Source: Streptomyces sp. WAC 04229
Lineage (GTDB): Bacteria; Actinomycetota; Actinomycetes; Streptomycetales; Streptomycetaceae
DNA length: 64,000 nucleotides
Direction: 5' to 3'
Assembly: GCF_003947455.1 (NCBI RefSeq)
Contig: NZ_QHJH01000015.1
Location: 1-64,000, forward strand
The notes under the pieces were generated by a model. That model saw only the letters and a list, made by a program, of their open reading frames with translations. It was not told the DNA's origin and ran no database searches. Both the position numbers and the translations under genes were made by a program. This document shows, piece after piece, positions 3,612 to 61,928 of the stretch (positions are counted from its first letter, which is position 1; each line of letters starts with the position of its first letter).

Positions 3612-4679
3612 TCAGCAGATCCGCGGCAGTTGCTCCCCGAGCGGCATGTCCACCACCCGGGTGCCACCGAGCCCGGTCCGGGCGACGACCATGCCGGGGT
3701 GGTCCGCGACCACCTCGCCGACCACCGCCGCCTCGGCGCCCAGCGGATGGGCCCGCATCGCGGCGAGGACCGCGTCGGCGCGGTCGCGCGGGACGAAGGC
3801 GACGAGCTTGCCCTCGTTGGCCACGTACATCGGGTCGAGGCCCAGCATCGCGCACGCCCCGGCGACGGGCGCCGGCACCGGCACCGCGCGCTCCTGGACG
3901 GCGATCCCGCACCCGGAGGCCGCGGCGATCTCGTTGAGCGAGGCGGCCAGGCCGCCGCGGGTCGGGTCGCGCAGCGCGTGCAGGTCGGGGCAGACCGCCA
4001 GCATCGCCTCGACCAGCCCGCCCAGCGCCGCGCAGTCGCTCTCCACGTCCGTCTCGAACCGCAGGTTCTCCCGCTCGCTCAGGATGGCCACGCCGTGCAC
4101 GCCGATGGCGCCGCTGACCAGGACGACGTCGCCCGGCACGACCCGGCGCGGGTGCGGGTCGACGCCGTCGGGGACCAGGCCGATGCCGGAGGTGTTCACG
4201 TAGACGCCGTCGCCGTGCCCGGCCTCCACGACCTTGGTGTCGCCCGTGACGACCCGGACCCCGGCCGCGCGGGCGGCGGCCCCGAGCGCCTCGGACACCT
4301 TGGCGACCGTGTCGATCGGGACGCCCTCCTCCAGGATCAGCCCGCAGGAGAGGTAGGCGGCACGGGCACCGCTCATGGCGAGGTCGTTGACCGTGCCGTT
4401 GACGGCGAGGTCGCCGATGCTGCCGCCGGGGAAGAACAGCGGCCGGACCACGAACGTGTCGGTGGAGAAGGCGAGCCGCGCCCCGCCCAGCTCGACCACG
4501 GCCGAGTCGGTCAGCGGCACCGGCGCGGGACCGGCCAGCGCCGGGACGACGACCTGCTCGATCAGCTCGGCGGACAGGGCGCCGCCCCCGCCGTGGCCCA
4601 TCACCACGCGCGGCCCGTCCCGCAGGGGCGCCGGGCAGGTCCAGGAGAGCATGTCCGGTGCTGCGGTGGTGTCAGACAA
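3612..4679 (-). CDS. hypE: HypE, hydrogenase maturation carbamoyl dehydratase
   Basis: HypE takes a carbamoyl group from HypF onto its C-terminal cysteine and dehydrates it with ATP to the thiocyanate that supplies the CN ligands of the NiFe site. The protein has 355 aa with the PurM/ThiL-like signature MGHGGGG near residue 27, the segment [13 protein letters not shown] and the diagnostic C-terminal tail ending PRIC. The start is read as TTG at 4679, overlapping the end of hypD by 8 bp and preceded by GGAGG 9 bp upstream. An internal ATG at 4652 lacks a ribosome site and would remove little. It is the last gene of the hydrogenase cluster. Confidence 0.96.
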
Positions 4680-5808
4680 CGGCGCTGTCCTCCAGGCTCG
4701 TGGCGGCCGGACGGGCCGGCAGTTCCAGCCGCCGGTACAGGTAGTACGCCGCGCAGGCGCCCTCGCTGGAGACCATGGTGGCTCCGAGCGGCGTGCGCGG
4801 GGTGCAGGTGGTGCCGAAGGCCTCGCACTCGTGGGGTTTGATCAGCCCCTGCAGGACCTCTCCGCTGCGGCACTCGGCGGGCTCGCGGGTGGCGATGTCG
4901 CCGACCTGGAAACGGTGTTCGGCGTCGTGGTCCCGGTAGCGGGCGGAGAGCCGCCAGCCGCTGTCCGGGATGGTCCCGATGCCTCGCCAGGCGCGGTCGG
5001 TGACCTCGAAGACGTCGTCCAGCATCGCCAGGGCGGCCGGGTTGCCCTCGGGCCGCACCGCGCGCGGGTAGGCGTTCTCGACGGTGTGCTCGCCCCGTTC
5101 CAGCTGACGCACCGTGCGGCGCACGCCCTCCAGGATGTCCAGCGGTTCGAAGCCGGTCACCACGATGGGCACCTTGTACCGTTCGGCGAGCGCCGGGTAC
5201 TCCTCGGTGCCCATCACGCTGCACACGTGCCCGGCGGCCAGGAAGCCCTGCACCCGGCAGTCGGGGGACCGCATGACCGCCTCGATCGCGGGCGGGACGC
5301 GCACGTGGGAGACGAGCAGGCTGAAGTTGCGGATGCCGCGCCTGCGCGCCTGATGGACCGTCATGGCGTTGGGCGGTGCGGTCGTCTCGAAGCCGATGCC
5401 GAAGAACACGACCTCGCGGTCGGGGTTCTCCTCGGCGATCCGCAGCGCGTCGAGCGGGGAGTAGACGACCCGGACGTCGCCGCCGGCGCCCCGGACCTGG
5501 AACAGGTCGCGGCCGGTGCCCGGCACGCGGAGCATGTCGCCGAAGGAGCAGAAGATCACCCCGGGCCGGGAGGCGATCTCCAGGGCCTTGTCGATGACCT
5601 CCAGCGGGGTCACGCACACCGGACAGCCCGGCCCGTGGATCAACTCGATCCCCTCGGGCAGCAGTTGGTCGATGCCGTGCCGGATGATGGTGTGCGTCTG
5701 ACCGCCGCACACCTCCATCAGCGCCCACGGCCTGGTCACCGTGGCCCTGATGTCGTCGAGGAGGCGGGCCGCCAGCTCCGGGTCCTGGAACTCGTCGATG
5801 TACTTCAC
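4672..5808 (-). CDS. hypD: HypD, Fe-S scaffold for Fe(CN)2CO assembly
   Basis: HypD with HypC forms the scaffold on which the Fe(CN)2CO unit of [NiFe]-hydrogenase is built. The GTG start at 5808 forms a GTGA overlap with the hypC stop and yields 378 aa, a normal family length. Signature motifs are present: [30 protein letters not shown], and the C-terminal cysteine-rich region around CTPRTPLG and [10 protein letters not shown] that holds the [4Fe-4S] cluster. An upstream in-frame extension only reads antisense through hypC and is not used. The order hypC-hypD-hypE is the usual one. Confidence 0.97.
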
Positions 5809-53141: not shown

Positions 53142-55286
53142 TCAGGCGCTTTTCTCCTGCACGAACCCGTCCGCGACGGGAAAAGGTGCGTTCTCGACGA
53201 CGTTCGGCCGTGGATCCTCCACGGGCACCTGCGGGCCGTTGGACTCCCGCAGCCAGCGGCGCAGCACCCGGTGGACGTGTTCGGCACCGACGATCTCCGT
53301 GCCCTCCTCGGCCGGGTCGGACAGCACGGCCGGTGACAGCAGGAAGGCGCGCGACTGGGCGCCGCCGAGCCCGCCGTGGGAGCCGATCTGCTCCTCGAAC
53401 GCGAGGACCTCGCCGTCGGCCGGGTCGTGGAAGGAGTTGACCATGATGTCGGCGGTGTGCGGGAAGGAGTGCGTGCGGCGTACGGCGTCGGCGGCGCCGG
53501 GGCCGAAGGGGGCGAGCGGGCCGGGATCCTCGTCGAGCCGGTCCAGGGGTATCTCGGCGCCGTGCGCACCCAGTACCACGCCGCCGTGCCGCTCGCTGCG
53601 CACCAGCAGGAAGCCGATGCCGGGGTGGTTGGCGAGGGTCGGCAGCAGCGCGGGGTGGCGGGCGTCGATCTCCTCCCTGGTCATCCGGTGCGGCACGTCC
53701 GGGAACGAGACCAGGCCGAGGTTGCCGGAGGCCAGCACGATCGGCTCGGAGCGGCGGCCGGCCGGGGTGTCGGCGGGTCTCTGCTGCGCGGCGCCCTCCT
53801 CGACGGGGCGGTGCAGGGCGGCGCGGACGGTGTTGCGGGCCTCGGCGCCGCTGCGGGTGCGCTGGGCGCGGCGCGGCACGGGCAGCCCGCAGCCGGCCCG
53901 GACCAGGTCGCCGAGGGTCAGTCCGTAGCGGGCGCGGAAGGTCTCGCCGGGGCTCTGGCCGTGGTCGGACAAGAGCACGATCCGGTAGGAGCGGGGGGCC
54001 TGGTCGGCGACCTTCTCGATCAGTGCCAGGGACCGGTCGAGCCGCCGCAGGACGTTGAGGGCGTCCCGGCCGTGCGGTCCGGAGTGGTGCGCCACCTCGT
54101 CGTAGGCCACGAGGTCGGCGTAGACGGCGGTGCGGCCGGCGAGCATGTCGCCCATCACCGCGGCGACGACCACGTCGCGTTCGACGACGGTGGCGAAGGC
54201 GCGGACGAAGGGGTAGAGGCCGCCGCGGGAGACGCGCGGGCGGACCTTGTGGGCGCGGGCGCGGGTGGACTGGCCGATCTCCCGGCCCACCTCGGCGACG
54301 AAGGACATCGCGGTGCGGACGGCGTTGGCCGGGTCGGAGAAGTAGGCGAAGTAGCCGGACCTGGACCGGGTCTCGCGGCTGCGGCGGCGGGTGGCTATGG
54401 ACAGCACCAGGGCCTGTTCGTCGGCGCCGCCGCCGAACAGGTTGCCGCGGCTCGCGCCGTCCAGGCTGAGCAGCCCGCCGTCGCCGGTGCGCCGGACGGC
54501 ACGGTGCTGGAGTTCGGCGGCGCTGGTCGGCCGGTTGCAGACCATGACCTCGCCGGTGTCCTTCTCGTACCAGCGGAAGGCGGGCACGTCGTGGTTGCTG
54601 CCGTGCAGGATGCCGAGCTGGCTGGCGCCGGTCTGGCTGGACCAGTCGGTGCGCCACGGGGCCAGCCGGTGGCTCGCGGACGCGCCGTGGCGGCCGAGCC
54701 AGCGGGCGACGGTGGGCATGGCGCCGCTGTCGACGGCGTCGAGCAGGACGTCGTGTCCCACGCCGTCCAGTTGCAGGAAGACGATGCCCGGGCCGGCCGG
54801 GCAGGGCGGGCCCGATCTGCGGCGGCGGTCGGCGAGGCGGTAGAGCCGGCGCCGGTAGGCGTCGTCGCCGCGCACGGTCAGGGCACCGCCGGTGGCGGAG
54901 GCGACGGCGGACATGACGGCGGCGACCACGACCGCGGTCTCGGGGGCGACGCCGCCGCGGCCGGCCGGGTTGACGTCGATGGCGAGGAGCAGCAGCCCGC
55001 CGTTGAGGAAGAAGACCAGCAGCCCGAGGACGAGCGCCGGCACCAGGAGGAGCAGGCGGACCATGAGCGGCCACACCACGGCGGAGAGCAGGCCGAAGGC
55101 GCCCGCGCCGACCGCGGCGGTCATCGCGATGTCGGTCGCGCTGTCCCCGTCGGGCGACTGGAGCCGGAAGTCCGGCAGGATGCCCGCGAGCACGAGCATG
55201 GTGAGGGTGGACACGGCCCACACCGCGACAATCCGCCCGATCTGACTGGCGACCCGGCGCCAACGGCCTCCACCCACGCTCCGCAC
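53142..55286 (-). CDS. Membrane phosphodiesterase/alkaline-phosphatase-fold protein with holin-like N-terminus
   Basis: The product has 714 aa. Residues 1-140 hold four hydrophobic helices resembling the phage-holin IV family (IVAVWAVSTLTMLVLAGILP and similar). From about 165 a type I phosphodiesterase/nucleotide pyrophosphatase domain follows, with the metal site IVFLQLDGVGHDVL, DLVAYDEVAHHSGPHG and LLSDHGQSPGETF. The nucleophile is probably in the SSQTGASQLG region. The catalytic domain likely faces outward and acts on a wall, lipid or nucleotide phosphoester. The GTG at 55286 is the longest start; a GTG at 55277 is as likely. Confidence 0.85.
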   Translation of the reverse strand: MRSVGGGRWRRVASQIGRIVAVWAVSTLTMLVLAGILPDFRLQSPDGDSATDIAMTAAVGAGAFGLLSAVVWPLMVRLLLLVPALVLGLLVFFLNGGLLLLAIDVNPAGRGGVAPETAVVVAAVMSAVASATGGALTVRGDDAYRRRLYRLADRRRRSGPPCPAGPGIVFLQLDGVGHDVLLDAVDSGAMPTVARWLGRHGASASHRLAPWRTDWSSQTGASQLGILHGSNHDVPAFRWYEKDTGEVMVCNRPTSAAELQHRAVRRTGDGGLLSLDGASRGNLFGGGADEQALVLSIATRRRSRETRSRSGYFAYFSDPANAVRTAMSFVAEVGREIGQSTRARAHKVRPRVSRGGLYPFVRAFATVVERDVVVAAVMGDMLAGRTAVYADLVAYDEVAHHSGPHGRDALNVLRRLDRSLALIEKVADQAPRSYRIVLLSDHGQSPGETFRARYGLTLGDLVRAGCGLPVPRRAQRTRSGAEARNTVRAALHRPVEEGAAQQRPADTPAGRRSEPIVLASGNLGLVSFPDVPHRMTREEIDARHPALLPTLANHPGIGFLLVRSERHGGVVLGAHGAEIPLDRLDEDPGPLAPFGPGAADAVRRTHSFPHTADIMVNSFHDPADGEVLAFEEQIGSHGGLGGAQSRAFLLSPAVLSDPAEEGTEIVGAEHVHRVLRRWLRESNGPQVPVEDPRPNVVENAPFPVADGFVQEKSA

Positions 55287-55388: not shown

Positions 55389-55790
55389 TCAGCGGCCGTC
55401 GTATCCCGCCGTCGGCATCGACAGCCTGCGGTGCACGCACGCCTTCATCCGGGCGTCGTAGGCCGGTTCCGCGTGTCCGACGGTCTCGACGCGGGCGCCG
55501 CGCCGCGCGCACTCCGCGGCGAAGTCGTCGACGGAGGCCAGCGCGCTCTCCAGCACCCGGCGGCTGGGGGCCACGAACAGGTCGCGGCCCGGACGGACCC
55601 CGTCCCACAGGGCGTCGTGGTCCGGTCGCAGCCCACGTACCAGCAGTTCCCTGGCGACGACGTAGCCGTGTTCCGCCGCCCAGCGGGCGCACATGGCGTG
55701 CTGGCTGCGGGAGTCGACCAGGAACGGATCGTCGTCCAGCAGTTCCAGCGGCGTCAGACTCGCGATCGCCGTCACCCGCACCGGCCCCAT
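55389..55790 (-). CDS. Small protein resembling a degenerate serine-recombinase catalytic domain
   Basis: The product has 133 aa from the ATG at 55790, with GGGGGGA upstream. The pattern RSQHAMCARWAAEHGYVVAR followed by VLESALASVDDFAAECARRG and ARVETVG parallels the serine-recombinase N-terminal fold (Q..C..WA...G, then a helix and RG.....). The Arg residues expected in RLDRLGR are not conserved (PSRRVLES), and the DNA-binding domain is missing. It is probably not an active recombinase. Function is unknown. Confidence 0.55.
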   Translation of the reverse strand: MGPVRVTAIASLTPLELLDDDPFLVDSRSQHAMCARWAAEHGYVVARELLVRGLRPDHDALWDGVRPGRDLFVAPSRRVLESALASVDDFAAECARRGARVETVGHAEPAYDARMKACVHRRLSMPTAGYDGR

Positions 55791-55884
55791 GGTGTCCCCC
55801 CTCACCTCCCGTCACCTCCCGTTTTCGCCGCCGACCCTACTCCTGGACGTAGGCTTCGGGGAGTCGCGCGAAGGAGGCAAAGAG

Positions 55885-56658
55885 GTGCCGGTGGAGCTCA
55901 CGTGGTGGGGTCACGCCACCTGCACGGTCGAGGACTCGGACATCCGCGTGCTCACCGATCCTCTGTTCGCCCGCCGCCTCGCCCACTTGCGCCGCAGGCG
56001 GGGGGCGGTGCCGCCGCCGGACGCCTGGCGCGCGGACGTGGCGCTGGTGTCCCATCTGCACGCCGACCACCTGCACGTGCCCTCGCTCGCGCGGCTCGCG
56101 CCGGGCACGCGCCTGCTCGTGCCCCGGGGCGCGCGACGGGCGGTGCCGGCGCTGCGGCGGCTCGGTCACCTGGACGTGGCGGAGGTGGCGCCCGGCGACG
56201 TGGCGCACGTCGGGGACCTGCGGATACGGGCGGTGCCCGCGCTCCACGACGGGCGTCGGCTGCCGGTCGGACGGCACCGCTCCCCCGCGCTCGGCTACGT
56301 CGTCGAGGGCGAGGTGCGGACGTACTTCGCCGGGGACACGGGGCTGTTCGACGGCATGGAGAAGGAGGTCGGGCCGGTCGACGCGGCGCTGTTGCCGGTG
56401 GGCGGCTGGGGCCCGTACCTGGGGGCGGAGCACCTGGACGCGGGGCGGGCGGCGGAGGCGCTGACCCGGCTGGCGCCGCGCACGGCGGTGCCGGTGCACT
56501 ACGGCACGTACTGGCCGATCGGGATGGACGCCGTGCGCCCCCACGAGTTCCACACGCCCGGCGACGAGTTCGTGCGCCTGTCGGCGCTGCGCGCGCCGGG
56601 GGTCGCCGTGCACCGGCTGGGGCACGGCGAGAGCGTGCGGGTGGAGGTCGCGCGGTGA
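55885..56658 (+). CDS. Metallo-beta-lactamase-fold hydrolase (UlaG-like)
   Basis: The product has 257 aa from a GTG at 55885 with a near-perfect AAGGAGG site. Metal motifs are WWGHATC near the N-terminus, SHLHADHLH (HxHxDH), FAGDTGLFDGM and VPVHYGTYWP. This is the UlaG/NAPE-PLD-like branch of MBL hydrolases. It overlaps the DedA gene by 4 bp (GTGA), so the two are coupled, hinting at a membrane-lipid-related substrate. Confidence 0.92.
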   Translation: MPVELTWWGHATCTVEDSDIRVLTDPLFARRLAHLRRRRGAVPPPDAWRADVALVSHLHADHLHVPSLARLAPGTRLLVPRGARRAVPALRRLGHLDVAEVAPGDVAHVGDLRIRAVPALHDGRRLPVGRHRSPALGYVVEGEVRTYFAGDTGLFDGMEKEVGPVDAALLPVGGWGPYLGAEHLDAGRAAEALTRLAPRTAVPVHYGTYWPIGMDAVRPHEFHTPGDEFVRLSALRAPGVAVHRLGHGESVRVEVAR

Positions 56659-57290
56659 ACTGGCTGGACGCCGCCGCGACGAGCGTGACGAGCATCCCGA
56701 CGGAGCCGACGCAGCAGGCGTTCGGGTATCCGTCGCTGTTCCTGCTGGTGCTCATCGGGGCGTTGGTGCCGGTGGTGCCGACGGGCGCGCTGGTGAGTTC
56801 GGCGGCCGTGGTGGCGATGCACCAGACGCTGCCGTTCTCCATGCTGATGGTGTTCGCGACCGCGTCGCTGGCCGCGTTCTGCGGGGACATGGCGCTGTAC
56901 TGGCTGGGCCGGCGCGGGGTCGGCTCGAAGAACGGCTCGCGCTGGCTGGAGGCGATCCGGTCCCGGGCGCCGGAGGACCGGCTGGAGCAGGCGCAGGACA
57001 AGCTCGCCGAGCACGACGTCGCGGTCCTGGTGCTGTCCCGGCTGGTGCCGGCCGGCCGCATACCGGTGATGCTGGCCTGCCTGCTCGCCGAGTGGCCGCT
57101 GCGCCGTTTCGCCCACGGCAACCTGCCGGCCTGCCTGGCCTGGGCGGTGACGTACCAGTTGATCGGGGTCCTGAGCGGCGCGCTGTTCAGCAAGCCCTGG
57201 GAGGGCGTGGCCGCGGCGATCGCCCTCACCGTCCTGGTCAGCGTGGCGCCGGGAGTGTGGCGACGGTTCCGGGGGCCGGCGAAGGCGTAG
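56655..57290 (+). CDS. DedA/VTT-domain membrane protein
   Basis: The product has 211 aa from the GTG in the overlap. Hydrophobic segments flank the VTT core, including the conserved CGDMALYWLGRRGVGS and VLVLSRLVPAGRIPVMLACL, with the R-x3-P/G-R pattern of DedA proteins. Such proteins flip or scramble lipids or keep proton-motive force. It converges on the next MBL gene across 43 bp. Confidence 0.9.
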   Translation: MNWLDAAATSVTSIPTEPTQQAFGYPSLFLLVLIGALVPVVPTGALVSSAAVVAMHQTLPFSMLMVFATASLAAFCGDMALYWLGRRGVGSKNGSRWLEAIRSRAPEDRLEQAQDKLAEHDVAVLVLSRLVPAGRIPVMLACLLAEWPLRRFAHGNLPACLAWAVTYQLIGVLSGALFSKPWEGVAAAIALTVLVSVAPGVWRRFRGPAKA

Positions 57291-57333: not shown

Positions 57334-58449
57334 CTACTCCAGTACCCGTGAAGCCCCCACCGGCAGGTCCCACAGGTCCTCCCGGGGCAGACCCGCGGCC
57401 TGCCAGGCGGCGCGGGTGCGGGTGAGGGGCTCCAGCACCGGTTCCGCGGAGAGGACGAACGTGCCCCAGTGCATCGGCGCCATGCGGCGGGCGCCCACGT
57501 CCTGGGCGGCCCGGACCGCCTCCTCCGGGTCGCAGTGCACGTCGCTGAGCCACCAGCGGGGCTCGTAGGCGCCGACGGGGAGCAGGGCGAGGTCGATACC
57601 GGGGTAGCGGCGGCCGATCCGGGTGAACCAGTGGCCGTACCCCGTGTCCCCGGCGAAGTACACGCGCCGGCCGTCGGGCGCGGTGAGCACCCAGCCGCCC
57701 CACAGGCTGCGGCAGGTGTCGACGAGGCTGCGCTTGGACCAGTGGTGCGCGGGGACGAAGTCGAAGCGGACGCCCGCCCGTCGCCCACCACCGCCCTTGC
57801 CGAGGGCGCCGTCGGCACCGCCCCTTGGACGCAGTTCGGTCGCCTCCCACCAGTCCAGCTCGGTGACGCGGGTGAAGCGGCGGCGGTGGAACCAGCGGCC
57901 CAGTCCGGCGGGCACCAGGACCGGGGTGTCGCGCGGGAGCCTGCGCAGGGTGGGGGCGTCCAGGTGGTCGTAGTGGTTGTGGCTGATGACGACGGCGTCG
58001 ACGCGGGGCAGGTCGCTCCAGGCGACGCCGACGGGGGTGATCCGGGCGGGGGTGCCGAGGATCCGGCGGGACCAGACCGGGTCGGTGAGCACGGTGAGGC
58101 CGCCGATCCGCACCACCCAGCTGGCGTGTCCCGCCCAGGTGACGGCGACGGTGTCCGCGTCCACGTGCGGCAGCGGGCCGGGGGCGCAGGGCAGCCGGGG
58201 GACGTCGGCGAGGCCCTCGCGGCCGGGTCTCACCGCGCCCTCGCGGGCGAATCTGGCGAGGGCCCTCAGGCCGGGCAGCGGCGTGGTCAGCCGGTCGTGG
58301 AAGCTGCGCGGCCATACGCGGTGTTCGGCGGGCGGCCGGGGATCGGCGAGCGGCGGGTACGAGGGGGCCCGGGCGGACGTGACCGGCGGCGCGGCGGTGT
58401 CCTCGGGGGACGCGGGGGTGCTCGTGGTCGACCGGGGCTGCTGCGTCAT
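57334..58449 (-). CDS. MBL-fold hydrolase of the NAPE-phospholipase D-like family
   Basis: The product has 371 aa. The ATG at 58449 overlaps the upstream stop (ATGA) and has GGGAG 8 bp before it. Motifs are VTWAGHASWVVRIGG, the HxHxDH site ISHNHYDHLD, PAHHWSKRS, YFAGDTGYGHW and MHWGTFVLS. NAPE-PLD relatives hydrolyse N-acyl phosphatidylethanolamines or similar phosphodiesters. Its coupling to a pseudo-aminotransferase gene is unusual. Confidence 0.93.
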   Translation of the reverse strand: MTQQPRSTTSTPASPEDTAAPPVTSARAPSYPPLADPRPPAEHRVWPRSFHDRLTTPLPGLRALARFAREGAVRPGREGLADVPRLPCAPGPLPHVDADTVAVTWAGHASWVVRIGGLTVLTDPVWSRRILGTPARITPVGVAWSDLPRVDAVVISHNHYDHLDAPTLRRLPRDTPVLVPAGLGRWFHRRRFTRVTELDWWEATELRPRGGADGALGKGGGGRRAGVRFDFVPAHHWSKRSLVDTCRSLWGGWVLTAPDGRRVYFAGDTGYGHWFTRIGRRYPGIDLALLPVGAYEPRWWLSDVHCDPEEAVRAAQDVGARRMAPMHWGTFVLSAEPVLEPLTRTRAAWQAAGLPREDLWDLPVGASRVLE

Positions 58450-59708
58450 CGAGGAGGCTCCCATCGCTGAGCGTCGCGCAGATCGCCGAAGACCGACCCG
58501 AGAGCGGTCAACGCGCGTCGCACGTGTGGCAGTTCCAACGGGTCCGGGGAGGTGAGGCATTCCGCGCGCTGTTCGGCGGTGCCGGTGCCGAGCAGCGGGC
58601 CGGTGGCGAGCCGCACGCGAAGGGCCGCGAGGTCGTCTCCGAAGCGGTGTCCGCCGGGGGCGGGCATGCCGAGCCGGGTGGAGAGGAAGTCCTCCAGTTC
58701 CTGAGCGTCGCCGACGCCCTGCGCCCCGAGGGCGTCGCGCAGCGGGCCCAGGTCGGCGTACAGGTGACGCCCGGCCTGCGGGGGCCGCGCCGTGGCGCCA
58801 GCGGCGACGACGGCCGCGTGCACGGCGGCGGCCACGCGCGCGTGCAGGCGTACGGCGGCCGACCGGCGGGCGGTGACCGGTTCGGGTTCGTCGAGTGCGT
58901 ACCCGGCCGCGGCGGCGACGGGCGCGGCCACGCCGGCGCCGAGGGCGGTGAGCACGTCGAGCACGCGCGCGTGCAGGCCGTCGCCGGCGGCGGACGCCGG
59001 GAAGCGGGCCACGGCGGCCGGCCAGCCGGGCGGCAGCAGCCCCCCGGCCAGGTCCGTGACGACGGTGACCTGCTCGGGCAGCATCTCGGCGGGACTGAGC
59101 ACCACGGTGGCCTGCGGGTCGTGCAGGGTGTCCCGCCAGGTCTCGTCGCTGACCAGGTGCAGCCCCTCCCCGGCAGCGGCCTCGACGGTCTCGTGCAGCA
59201 GTTCGGGCCGCGCGACGGTGCCGGTGGGGTCGTCGGCGACGGCCAGCACCAGCAGGCGGGGGTCGCCGCCCTCGGCGCGCACCCGGCGGACGGTCTCCAG
59301 GAGGGCGTACGGGTCGGGGACGCCACCGCTCTCGGCCGGCGTCGGGACGTGGAAGACGGGGCTGCCGAGCAGCCGCGCGTCCGGTGCCCACCAGGCCGCG
59401 CAGGGGCGGGGCACCAGGACGTGGCCGCCGAGCGCGGCGGTCAGCGCAAGGAGCAGGGTGTGCGCACCGGGGGCGGCGGCCACCCGGCCGGGCTCGGTGG
59501 GCAGGCCGCGCCGGTGCCAGTAGCCGCTCGCGGCGGCGGTGAGGGCGGGGGCGCCGCCGATCGGTTCCCCTCGGGCGCGGTCCGCGGCGGCGGCGAGTAC
59601 GGCGGACAGTTCGGGAAGCACCGGCAGCCCGTCGTCGGGCAGGTGGGGGCCGTACCGGACGGGGCCGTGGCCCACGGCGTCGTGGCCTTCGGGGTCCGTG
59701 CGCCGCAT
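58446..59708 (-). CDS. Lysine-free class I/II aminotransferase-fold protein (pseudo-enzyme)
   Basis: The product has 420 aa from the ATG at 59708. The fold-type I outline is preserved: APGAHTLLLALTAALGG, ADDPTGTVARPEL at about 158-170 (NNPTGT with Asn to Asp), LVSDETWRDTL at about 185-195. Where the catalytic PLP lysine is expected (S-x-S-K-x-x-G) it reads VVTDLAGGLLPPGW. The whole protein contains no lysine, so a Schiff base cannot form. The reading frame is intact, arguing for a retained non-catalytic role, perhaps regulatory or binding. Confidence 0.85.
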   Translation of the reverse strand: MRRTDPEGHDAVGHGPVRYGPHLPDDGLPVLPELSAVLAAAADRARGEPIGGAPALTAAASGYWHRRGLPTEPGRVAAAPGAHTLLLALTAALGGHVLVPRPCAAWWAPDARLLGSPVFHVPTPAESGGVPDPYALLETVRRVRAEGGDPRLLVLAVADDPTGTVARPELLHETVEAAAGEGLHLVSDETWRDTLHDPQATVVLSPAEMLPEQVTVVTDLAGGLLPPGWPAAVARFPASAAGDGLHARVLDVLTALGAGVAAPVAAAAGYALDEPEPVTARRSAAVRLHARVAAAVHAAVVAAGATARPPQAGRHLYADLGPLRDALGAQGVGDAQELEDFLSTRLGMPAPGGHRFGDDLAALRVRLATGPLLGTGTAEQRAECLTSPDPLELPHVRRALTALGSVFGDLRDAQRWEPPR

Positions 59709-59789: not shown

Positions 59790-60671
59790 TCAGCGCTCCC
59801 CGTCCTCCCCGCGCAGCCGGAGCCGCAGCCGGTGGGCGGCCGCCGCGCACGCGCCCGCGATCAGGACGCCGCCCGCGGCCAGGGCGGGCACCGAGTCGCT
59901 GAAGGTGCCGCCGGCCCCGGCCCGCACCCCGTGTTCCGCCTTCCCACCGCCGCAGGACCTCCCGGCCTCGGCGGACTCGCCGTGCGGGGCGGCGGTCCCG
60001 GGACACGGCGGCTCGGTGGCGCAGGGCGTGCCGTGGGCGGGCTTGTCGCCGTGCGGGGCGGTGGACGGGGGGCACGCGGGCTTGGCGGTGCCGCTCTCGC
60101 CCGCCGTGGCGCCCGGCACGTTCATGGTGGCGCTCCACGGGTCGCCCTCCCCGCCCGCCTCGTCCGGGCAGGAGCCGTCGACGGTCCAGTCCTCCTCGGC
60201 GCCCTCCGCGTCCGCCTCGCTCCCGAAGTCCTCGGCGGCGGCTATCCGGGCGGTCCCCCGGTAGGCCGGACCGGCGCCCGTGCCTCCCTCTCCCTCCACC
60301 TTGCGCAGCTCGACGGTGCCCTCGTCGAAGGCCAGGGAGGTGGCGTCGAGGGTCGCCGGCGCGGAGCCGCCGGTCGGGGCGCACGAGACCGACACGGTGA
60401 CGGTGCCGCCCGGGGTGACGTCGGCGGGGCTGACCTCGGCGGCGGCCCGGCCCCCGGCCGGTGCGAGGGGTTCCTCGGCGGCCGGCGGCAGTACGGGTTC
60501 CTCGGCGGCCGGCGGCGGTACGGGCTCACCGTCGGCCGGCGGCGGTACGGGCTCACCGGCACCGGCGGGCGGCGGGGGGACTGCGGGATCGGCCGCGCTC
60601 GGCCCCGCGAGGGCGCCGAGGGCGGCACTGGCCAGGACGGCCACGGACAGGGCGCGGGCGGTGCGGCGCAT
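59790..60671 (-). CDS. Secreted/cell-surface protein with Pro-rich repeats and C-terminal anchor
   Basis: The product has 293 aa from the ATG at 60671 with GAAGGAG 8 bp upstream. It has a signal peptide (about 1-28), a Pro/Glu/Ala repeat region (PPADGEPVPPP, PAAEEPVLPP) to about residue 75, a beta-rich domain (VSPADVTPGGTVTVSVSCAP), a Gly/Cys-rich part and a C-terminal hydrophobic helix LAAGGVLIAGACAAAAH followed by RLRLRLRGE. This is the architecture of a membrane-anchored surface protein. Function is unknown. Confidence 0.75.
   Translation of the reverse strand: MRRTARALSVAVLASAALGALAGPSAADPAVPPPPAGAGEPVPPPADGEPVPPPAAEEPVLPPAAEEPLAPAGGRAAAEVSPADVTPGGTVTVSVSCAPTGGSAPATLDATSLAFDEGTVELRKVEGEGGTGAGPAYRGTARIAAAEDFGSEADAEGAEEDWTVDGSCPDEAGGEGDPWSATMNVPGATAGESGTAKPACPPSTAPHGDKPAHGTPCATEPPCPGTAAPHGESAEAGRSCGGGKAEHGVRAGAGGTFSDSVPALAAGGVLIAGACAAAAHRLRLRLRGEDGER
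60470..60565. repeat. Imperfect tandem repeat in the surface-protein gene
   Basis: About four units of roughly 27 bp (GGCCGGCGGCGGTACGGGCT and variants) encode the Pro/Ala/Glu-rich wall-spacer repeats. Such repeats commonly vary in copy number. Confidence 0.7.
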
Positions 60672-60858: not shown

Positions 60859-61653
60859 TCAGGCCCCGGGATCCCGCAGCACCTGCTCCCGCACCCGGTC
60901 GCAGCAGCGGCTGATCAGGCGGGAGACGTGCATCTGGGAGATGCCGAGCTGCTCGGCGATCCGGCTCTGGGTCATGTCGTCGAAGAAGCGCATGTACAGG
61001 ATGGCGCGCTCCCGGTCGGGGAGGGCGGCCAGGCGGTCCTTGACGGCCTCGCGGTCCACGACGGTGTCGAGGGCCGGGTCGGGTCCGCCGAGGGCGTCAC
61101 CGAGCGAGAAGCCGTCCTCGCTGCCCGGCAGCTCGGCGTCCAGGGACAGCGCGGTGAAGCTCTCCAGCGCCTCCAGTCCGACCCGGACGTCCTCCTCGCC
61201 GAGGTCGGTGTGCTCGGCGATCTCGGCGACCGTGGGGCTGCGGCCCGGGATGGTCTGGGAGAGCTCCTGGCGGGCGAAGCGCACGCGGTTGCGCAGTTCC
61301 TGGACCCGGCGCGGCACGTGCAGCGTCCACATGTGGTCGCGGAAGTGCCGCTTGATCTCGCCGGTGATGGTCGGCACGGCGTAGCTCTCGAAGGCGTTGC
61401 CGCGCTCGGGGTCGTACCGGTCGACGGCCTTGACCAGGCCGAGGGCGGCGACCTGGCGCAGGTCGTCGTAGCTCTCGCCGCGGCTGCGGAAGCGTCCCGC
61501 GAGGCGTTCGGCCATGGGCAGCCAGGCCTCCACGATCCGGTCGCGGACCACGTCGCGCTCCGGGCCGTCGGGGAGGGTGGTCAGCCGGCGGAACGCGTCC
61601 GCGGTGTCGGGGGCGTCGTCGTGCGGGTGCTTCACGCTGGCGTGGATCGGCAT
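60859..61653 (-). CDS. SigB/SigF/SigG-family RNA polymerase sigma factor
   Basis: The product has 264 aa from the ATG at 61653 with GAAGGAG upstream (rather long spacing of 11). Region 2 is YDDLRQVAALGLVKAVDRYD and FESYAVPTITGEIKRHFRD; region 3 follows LHVPRRVQELRNRV; region 4 is RERAILYMRFFDDMTQSRIA with the HTH ISQMHVSRLISR. This is the stress/sporulation class with many Streptomyces paralogues. No anti-sigma or antagonist gene lies next to it, so control must act from elsewhere. Confidence 0.94.
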   Translation of the reverse strand: MPIHASVKHPHDDAPDTADAFRRLTTLPDGPERDVVRDRIVEAWLPMAERLAGRFRSRGESYDDLRQVAALGLVKAVDRYDPERGNAFESYAVPTITGEIKRHFRDHMWTLHVPRRVQELRNRVRFARQELSQTIPGRSPTVAEIAEHTDLGEEDVRVGLEALESFTALSLDAELPGSEDGFSLGDALGGPDPALDTVVDREAVKDRLAALPDRERAILYMRFFDDMTQSRIAEQLGISQMHVSRLISRCCDRVREQVLRDPGA

Positions 61654-61928
61654 GTGCGTCGCAACTCCTTCGGAGCGCGGGGGCCGGTCGTCGGTTCGGG
61701 GGCGGGCCCTCGGGCACGGCCCGTGCGGGGCGGCCGGAGTCCGTGAACCTCCGGCGCGCCGGATGGACGCCACCGGTGCGACGACACGACCCTGGGGGTC
61801 GGGCGGTCACCCGTGGGAGGGCGTCCGGGCCCGGACGGCTACGTCCGGGGCGGCGCAGCCGCTCCCACGGACGTGCCTCCTGTCCGAAGCACTGCCCTTG
61901 CCCCTGCCCCCTGAAGCCCGTCGCAAAC
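61654..61928. promoter_or_regulatory. Upstream region of the sigma factor gene
   Basis: No credible gene is seen in this GC-rich stretch. It should hold the sigma gene promoter (read leftward). Several short GC dyads occur, but no recognisable operator or -10/-35 pair stands out. Confidence 0.4.

Follow-up and report, generated by a model that had tools for sequence, protein, structure and literature searches.

A likely PLP-free, non-catalytic pseudoenzyme of the aminotransferase fold and its gene coupling to a NAPE-PLD-like hydrolase in Streptomyces

What is left of an aminotransferase when the lysine that anchors its cofactor, pyridoxal 5′-phosphate (PLP), is gone, and for what could such a protein be kept? 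The question is raised by a gene of Streptomyces sp. WAC 04229, located in a stretch of 64,000 nucleotides (positions 1 to 64,000 of contig NZ_QHJH01000015.1), which is called the window at its full length. An earlier note on this DNA had described the product as a lysine-free protein of the aminotransferase fold. The protein is a pseudoenzyme with high confidence, and it is likely to be a PLP-free one with a non-catalytic role; its gene and a NAPE-PLD-like hydrolase gene are coupled. The two genes are located as follows.

58446..59708, minus strand: gene of the lysine-free pseudo-aminotransferase (P0002), 420 aa, recognised from its open reading frame (ORF), translation, Pfam match, AlphaFold2 model and fold match
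57334..58449, minus strand: gene of the NAPE-PLD-like metallo-beta-lactamase-fold hydrolase, 371 aa, recognised from PF12706 (154.7 bits) and the match to 4qn9, and overlapping the preceding gene by ATGA

Fold and cofactor site of the lysine-free protein

The ORF at 58446-59708 was found to have a GGAGG immediately 5′ of its own ATG and to encode 420 residues without any lysine. Its end was found to share 4 nucleotides, ATGA, with the hydrolase gene (...CGATGACG...), in which the TGA stop of the first gene overlaps the ATG start of the second, so that the intact frame and the coupling described in the earlier note were borne out. The sole Pfam match of the protein was Aminotran_1_2 (PF00155), with 48.2 bits against a cut-off of 19.7. 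The AlphaFold2 model, built on an alignment of 78 rows (27 relatives with a lysine at the PLP site, termed K-bearing, and 51 lysine-less relatives), was found to have a mean predicted local distance difference test score (pLDDT) of 93.9 and a predicted template modelling score (pTM) of 0.91. The top Foldseek matches of the model were Thermus aspartate aminotransferase (AspAT) and plant prephenate aminotransferase. The comparison by VIA-align, which covered the top chains of Foldseek itself, gave Z scores of 36-42 (about 40) with 333-368 residues aligned across the best 50 PLP-fold entries listed. With the profile score above its cut-off and the same fold in the model, the protein was placed in the class I/II aminotransferase fold (PF00155). 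The best fold matches were also found to contain 5wml, whose title describes the plant enzyme with the mutation K306A, which indicates that an aminotransferase fold can stand without its lysine, K306 being presumably the PLP lysine.

The residues of the cofactor site were counted over 190 distinct relatives (29 K-bearing and 161 without the site lysine), an uneven set in which many members are the best matches of searches with the window protein. The PLP-contact roles given to these residues are our assumption, taken from the literature on AspAT. The positions were found to be as follows.

59397..59399, minus strand: codon of A104, in place of the Trp that presumably stacks on the PLP ring (W in 29/29 K-bearing, A or P in 157/161 lysine-less relatives)
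59220..59234, minus strand: D159-D160-P-T-G163, with D160 in place of the Asn which we take to contact PLP O3′ (N in 29/29 K-bearing, D in 160/161 lysine-less relatives)
59142..59150, minus strand: S187-D188-E189, with D188, presumably the ring-nitrogen Asp of PLP enzymes, retained (D in 161/161 lysine-less, 27/29 K-bearing relatives)
59043..59045, minus strand: codon of G222 at the PLP-lysine position, facing K234 of Thermus AspAT (K in 27/27 K-bearing rows)
59019..59021, minus strand: codon of P230, in place of what we take to be the PLP-phosphate Arg (R in 29/29 K-bearing, P in 158/161 lysine-less relatives)
58611..58613, minus strand: codon of R366, retained, which by its motif we take to be the substrate-carboxylate Arg (R in 161/161 lysine-less relatives; R in 25 and K in 4 of 29 K-bearing relatives)

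In the phmmer alignment with Thermus AspAT (1b5o), G222 was found opposite K234, the PLP lysine, D160 opposite the Asn of NPTG, P230 opposite the Arg of GWR and W191 opposite the Tyr of SDEIY. The segment VVTDLAGGLLPPGW (residues 216-229) includes G222, which stands opposite the K of GLSK/GLTK in 27/27 K-bearing rows; site 222 of the 161 lysine-less relatives was found to contain G (146), A (11) or, once each, S, P, E or V. The residues Y47, S82, K83, W104, N160, R230 and Y191 were each conserved in 96-100% of the 27 K-bearing rows, whereas in the lysine-less rows of the same alignment Y47, the S82-K83 pair and G219 were gone and position 191 was mostly occupied by Trp (37/51; Y in 8/51). We take Y47 to be the Tyr that is likely to reach into the site of the partner subunit and S82-K83 to be the phosphate cup. 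The Ser/Lys cup, stacking Trp, Asn, phosphate Arg and partner Tyr were all found to be replaced in the window protein. It therefore has neither the Schiff-base lysine nor the phosphate and ring contacts of a PLP-dependent aminotransferase, and retains the Asp to the ring nitrogen and the Arg to the substrate carboxylate (D188, R366).

Since the lysine, the stacking Trp, the cup, the Asn and the phosphate Arg were lost jointly, binding of PLP or of an aldimine is unlikely. The idea that the protein binds pre-formed aldimines, put forward in the earlier note, is not supported, as the stacking Trp was lost together with the phosphate cup and phosphate Arg, whereas its option of a PLP-free protein is well supported at the level of sequence, most of the other PLP contacts being lost as well.

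The protein is quite unlikely to be still an enzyme that acts by PLP-independent or lysine-independent chemistry. Such chemistry would agree with purifying selection on the gene (see below) and with the presence of acids and an Arg that are conserved in the lysine-less class only (D132, E138, R142, D160, E169, E176 and E208 in the 78-row alignment), but the occupants of site 222 include no recurrent base, with E found there once, and the residues of the phosphate cup, ring stacking and phosphate Arg are gone. The ColD-type dehydratases contain a His in the place of the lysine, unlike the lysine-less class described here. In the AlphaFold2 model, D132, E138, R142, E169, E176 and E208 were found on or beside the helices 133-145, 168-180 and 206-209, and they may form a new binding face.

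The total absence of lysine, on which the earlier note laid its emphasis, was observed as described, but that emphasis was overstated. When a simple script was used to call ORFs over 400 kb from a close relative, 3/107 ORFs of at least 350 aa were found to contain no lysine and 6/107 at most one; two of the three lysine-free ORFs look like wrong-frame calls. None of the 18 ORFs of at least 350 aa called in the window was lysine-free, though the same caller missed the window gene itself. The K-bearing relatives contained a mean of 3.6 lysines per ~390 residues, with K222 and K83 kept in 27/27 rows; removal of these two leaves about 1.6 lysines, so that zero is expected in ~20% of the sequences (Poisson estimate). 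The 161 relatives without the site lysine were found to contain no lysine (99), one (56), two (4) or three (2), and position 404 holds 42 of the remaining lysines. As 99/161 stands against ~20% expected, some extra lysine depletion is indicated. The zero count of the window protein is uncommon, not extraordinary, and follows for the most part from the low lysine content of the family, to which the extra depletion adds; what carries weight is that all 161 relatives have lost the site lysine, not that lysine is missing altogether.

Spread, descent and selection of the lysine-less class

The spread of the gene was followed in a genus sample of 199 genomes and a class-wide sample of 296 genomes. 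In the genus sample, 186/199 genomes were found to match the window protein at E ≤1e-20, and 166 of them, matching at ≤1e-100, were typed as lysine-less by score alone, the genomes with K-bearing relatives only reaching no better than 1e-78. The 20 weaker genomes, searched with a broader profile, were found to contain the lysine-less type (10), K-bearing relatives only (5), only fragments without the site that nevertheless adjoin the hydrolase gene (3), or nothing at 1e-40 (2); the last two (G041, G163) contained fragments beside the hydrolase gene at an assembly gap or contig end. A gene of the lysine-less type would thus be present in at least 179/199 genomes (166 by score, 13 read). In the class-wide sample, 67/296 genomes matched at 1e-25, both types pooled. 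Of 342 loci, 80 were kept; the gene is present in named records such as Streptomyces sp. DH41, S. coelicoflavus, S. viridochromogenes and S. griseoruber.

In the tree, all 51 lysine-less rows came from Streptomycetaceae, the family of the window itself, as judged by named records, whereas the K-bearing rows were found in Streptomycetaceae and four other families. The two types form the two sides of a single branch with 100/100 support, and the K-bearing relatives, with 39-44% identity along most of the protein, are the closest in sequence among those found. The lysine-less row closest to the split (L127 in G206, 3772-4962) was found to contain Ser at the site, still GWR and already DDPTG, and was already linked to the hydrolase gene; it looks like an early stage and a candidate intermediate of the lysine loss. 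Orthologues keeping the catalytic lysine, which the earlier note regarded as the mark of a recently decaying copy, were not found: 161/190 relatives lack the site lysine as well, and none of the 29 K-bearing genes lies beside the hydrolase gene. The recent decay of a single copy was ruled out, as the lysine loss is shared by the orthologues.

The ratio of nonsynonymous to synonymous substitution (dN/dS, Nei-Gojobori) was found to be 0.20-0.35 for the window gene and 0.21-0.32 for the hydrolase gene against the same 11 loci, of which L007 and L150 are of one species. No internal stop was found by tblastn in 50 locus matches of the gene. A TGA seemingly inside many matches was set aside, because the alignments appear to overrun the gene's own stop near residue 411-413; the ORFs of the loci that were read end there.

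That the gene as a whole is decaying on its way out is largely refuted and has very little probability left. Broken copies were found (L271 in G005, split over frames, and a split copy at G272:C1:432969-434122), 5/199 genus genomes contain K-bearing relatives only, and 13/199 contain no match, several being very fragmented assemblies and some matches being missing at contig ends. These findings are opposed by the lysine-less type in an estimated 179/199 genomes, the absence of internal stops in the 50 locus matches and a dN/dS well below 1. The loop around 222 was found to be shortened or divergent in L261, L263 (G145; shortened) and L276, and together with the broken copies this shows that some lineages apparently dispense with the gene or the loop.

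In 8/10 inspected K-bearing loci (L094:2175-4827, L098:3347-5968, L095, L097, L099, L100, L124 and L125), a KamA-like ORF was recognised by eye close to the gene; two of these ORFs, when tested, scored 120-123 bits with KamA-family radical SAM models, short of the cut-off of 199. Pfam also confirmed an AMP-binding gene nearby in L098 and a VinK-like gene nearby in L094. With these neighbours, the K-bearing loci look like biosynthetic clusters, in which the K-bearing aminotransferase and the KamA-like ORF possibly make up a beta-amino-acid module of actinobacteria. Common ancestry of the pseudoenzyme with specialised-metabolism aminotransferases of this sort is probable. A forerunner of the class I aminotransferase kind would have lost the cofactor site when the gene spread in Streptomycetaceae or earlier, and the folded body would have been retained for a non-catalytic binding, scaffold or regulatory job.

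Thermus AspAT and the prephenate aminotransferases were found to have in common with the window protein the whole fold (Z ~40), the ring-nitrogen Asp and the carboxylate Arg, whereas the identity is 16-21% and the window protein, in contrast to class I aminotransferases, contains no PLP lysine, O3′ Asn, stacking Trp, phosphate cup or phosphate Arg. The K-bearing actinobacterial relatives differ from it in keeping the PLP residues and in standing in apparent biosynthetic clusters, never beside the hydrolase gene.

Fold-type I enzymes are dimers, which counts for the view that the protein forms a mixed dimer in which it is the non-catalytic partner of a lysine-bearing aminotransferase. Both types were found in some genomes (G067, G205, G511 and G561), but the genome of the window was found to contain no close K-bearing paralogue, the next best matches having E of 1e-4 and 2e-4, and Y47, the presumed partner-site Tyr, is lost. 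The precedent is LCB1/SPTLC1 of serine palmitoyltransferase, which the available text of PMC3794620 presents as a PLP-fold protein without the lysine, paired with the active LCB2; a close active partner of this kind was not found in the genome of the window. With no close active twin in the same genome, a mixed dimer is very unlikely. Yeast Alt2 is an aminotransferase paralogue kept after its alanine transaminase activity was lost, and it is treated as still PLP-binding in the accessible part of PMC5960717, whereas most PLP contacts of the window protein are gone. The known PLP-fold pseudoenzymes LCB1 and Alt2, as far as these partial texts go, thus have an active twin or still meet PLP, whereas the window protein has lost most PLP contacts and has no close active twin in its genome. 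The family is not mentioned in the available part of a review of aminotransferase evolution (PMC9309667), and no paper on it was found in a literature search with poor coverage of subscription papers. A lysine-less protein which is probably present in about nine-tenths of the sampled genomes of a heavily studied genus is still filed by Pfam as an aminotransferase, and it would offer a clean case of a cofactor site stripped and a fold retained for another use.

Coupling to the hydrolase gene and the possible role

The hydrolase was found to match human NAPE-PLD (4qn9) at E 2.8e-57, in agreement with the label given to it in the earlier note, and the HNHYDH motif, a second His, an Asp and a last His were found to be aligned. 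These are presumably the metal ligands, and the hydrolase thus contains the intact metal-ligand motifs of the metallo-beta-lactamase fold. Where a lysine-less gene was followed by 1.4 kb of DNA or more, the hydrolase gene was found directly downstream in 149/156 cases, against 0/29 for the K-bearing genes, and the letters ATGA were present at the stop in 117/152 hydrolase-linked genes. No adjacent hydrolase gene was found in seven lysine-less loci (L033, L035, L055, L072, L084, L130 and L195).

Several observations weigh against a PLP-free protein tied to the hydrolase. D188 and R366 are invariant in 161/161 lysine-less relatives, so that a ligand of some kind may still be bound. Six of the seven unlinked loci lie in genomes (G129, G174, G056, G511, G276 and G219, the last a fragmented assembly) that keep the pseudoenzyme but in which no hydrolase orthologue was found genome-wide, the best matches, if any, being relatives with 40-42% identity; in the named locus L195 the hydrolase gene has been lost from its place. 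Conversely, G037, G156, G120 and G121 keep the hydrolase gene and contain no pseudoenzyme gene in ~1.4 kb upstream, and in several other genomes the hydrolase gene lies at a contig end, where the presence of the pseudoenzyme gene is not judgeable. No fusion of the two was found among the loci examined, and the missing and damaged copies described above point in the same direction. Hydrolase orthologues were also found in two other families (62-63% identical; G304, G371, G420 and G378), without any of the tested neighbours, and a third family contains a less similar one (47%; G389). The check proposed in the earlier note, whether orthologues stay coupled to the hydrolase gene, thus gave a strong link as a rule, but not an obligate bond; the hydrolase as an obligate partner was weakened as a candidate, as either gene persists alone in certain genomes.

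For a non-catalytic pseudoenzyme, the proposal is that it would serve the process of the hydrolase; the locus also encodes membrane proteins and a SigB-type sigma factor. That the two act in the same process is an even call, and that the pseudoenzyme is a direct physical partner of the hydrolase is rather doubtful. The locus is an unexplored context for bacterial NAPE-PLD-like hydrolases.

The two invariant residues could also be explained if the protein were a ligand sensor, in which the relic pocket (D188, R366) would bind an amino acid or a small anionic metabolite and signal to the hydrolase or to a SigB-type pathway. Their conservation while most other pocket residues changed and the SigB-type sigma gene nearby are in favour of a sensor, but no output domain was found (the single Pfam match and the model show an aminotransferase fold over nearly the whole length), some copies (L261, L263 and L276) have a shortened or divergent loop around 222, and R366 and D188 may be retained for folding. 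Such a sensor is unlikely. Its family-wide form, in which the PLP-free pocket would bind an amino acid or a related acid and switch the NAPE-PLD-like phosphodiesterase, is a long shot; if true, membrane-lipid turnover in Streptomyces would be linked to amino-acid status under a stress pathway of the SigB type.

A divergent gene beside the pseudoenzyme gene (L033:3701-5227 and L035:4005-5530, the latter called as two ORFs) looks by eye as if it encodes a PAP2/diacylglycerol-kinase-like protein; both of these genomes are without the hydrolase.

Wider neighbourhood

The other genes of the locus were found to be as follows.

60859..61773, minus strand: SigB/SigF/SigG-type sigma factor (TIGR02980, 293.2 bits, cut-off 234.35)
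59790..60671, minus strand: probable secreted or membrane protein, judged by eye, with an internal ATG as the chosen start
56664..57290, plus strand, convergent: VTT-domain (DedA-type) membrane protein with an approximate start (PF09335, 55.9 bits, cut-off 33.9)
55693..56658, plus strand, convergent: second metallo-beta-lactamase-fold hydrolase (PF12706, 117.4 bits), the start being probably further in
53142-55286, minus strand: protein of 714 aa with a phage-holin-4-2-type membrane part and a type I phosphodiesterase domain (Pfam)

The minus strand was found to contain the sigma factor gene, followed by the genes of the putative membrane protein, the pseudoenzyme and the NAPE-PLD-like hydrolase. 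A sigma-factor gene was also found upstream in several orthologous loci. The product of 59790..60671 was found to contain a signal-like N-terminus followed by the presence of a hydrophobic C-terminal stretch (by eye); it matched nothing in Pfam or NCBIfam up to E 1, and it recurs in a number of loci. The second metallo-hydrolase was present in many orthologous loci, and the gene with the holin-4-2 and phosphodiesterase parts was found to recur near the locus in some relatives.

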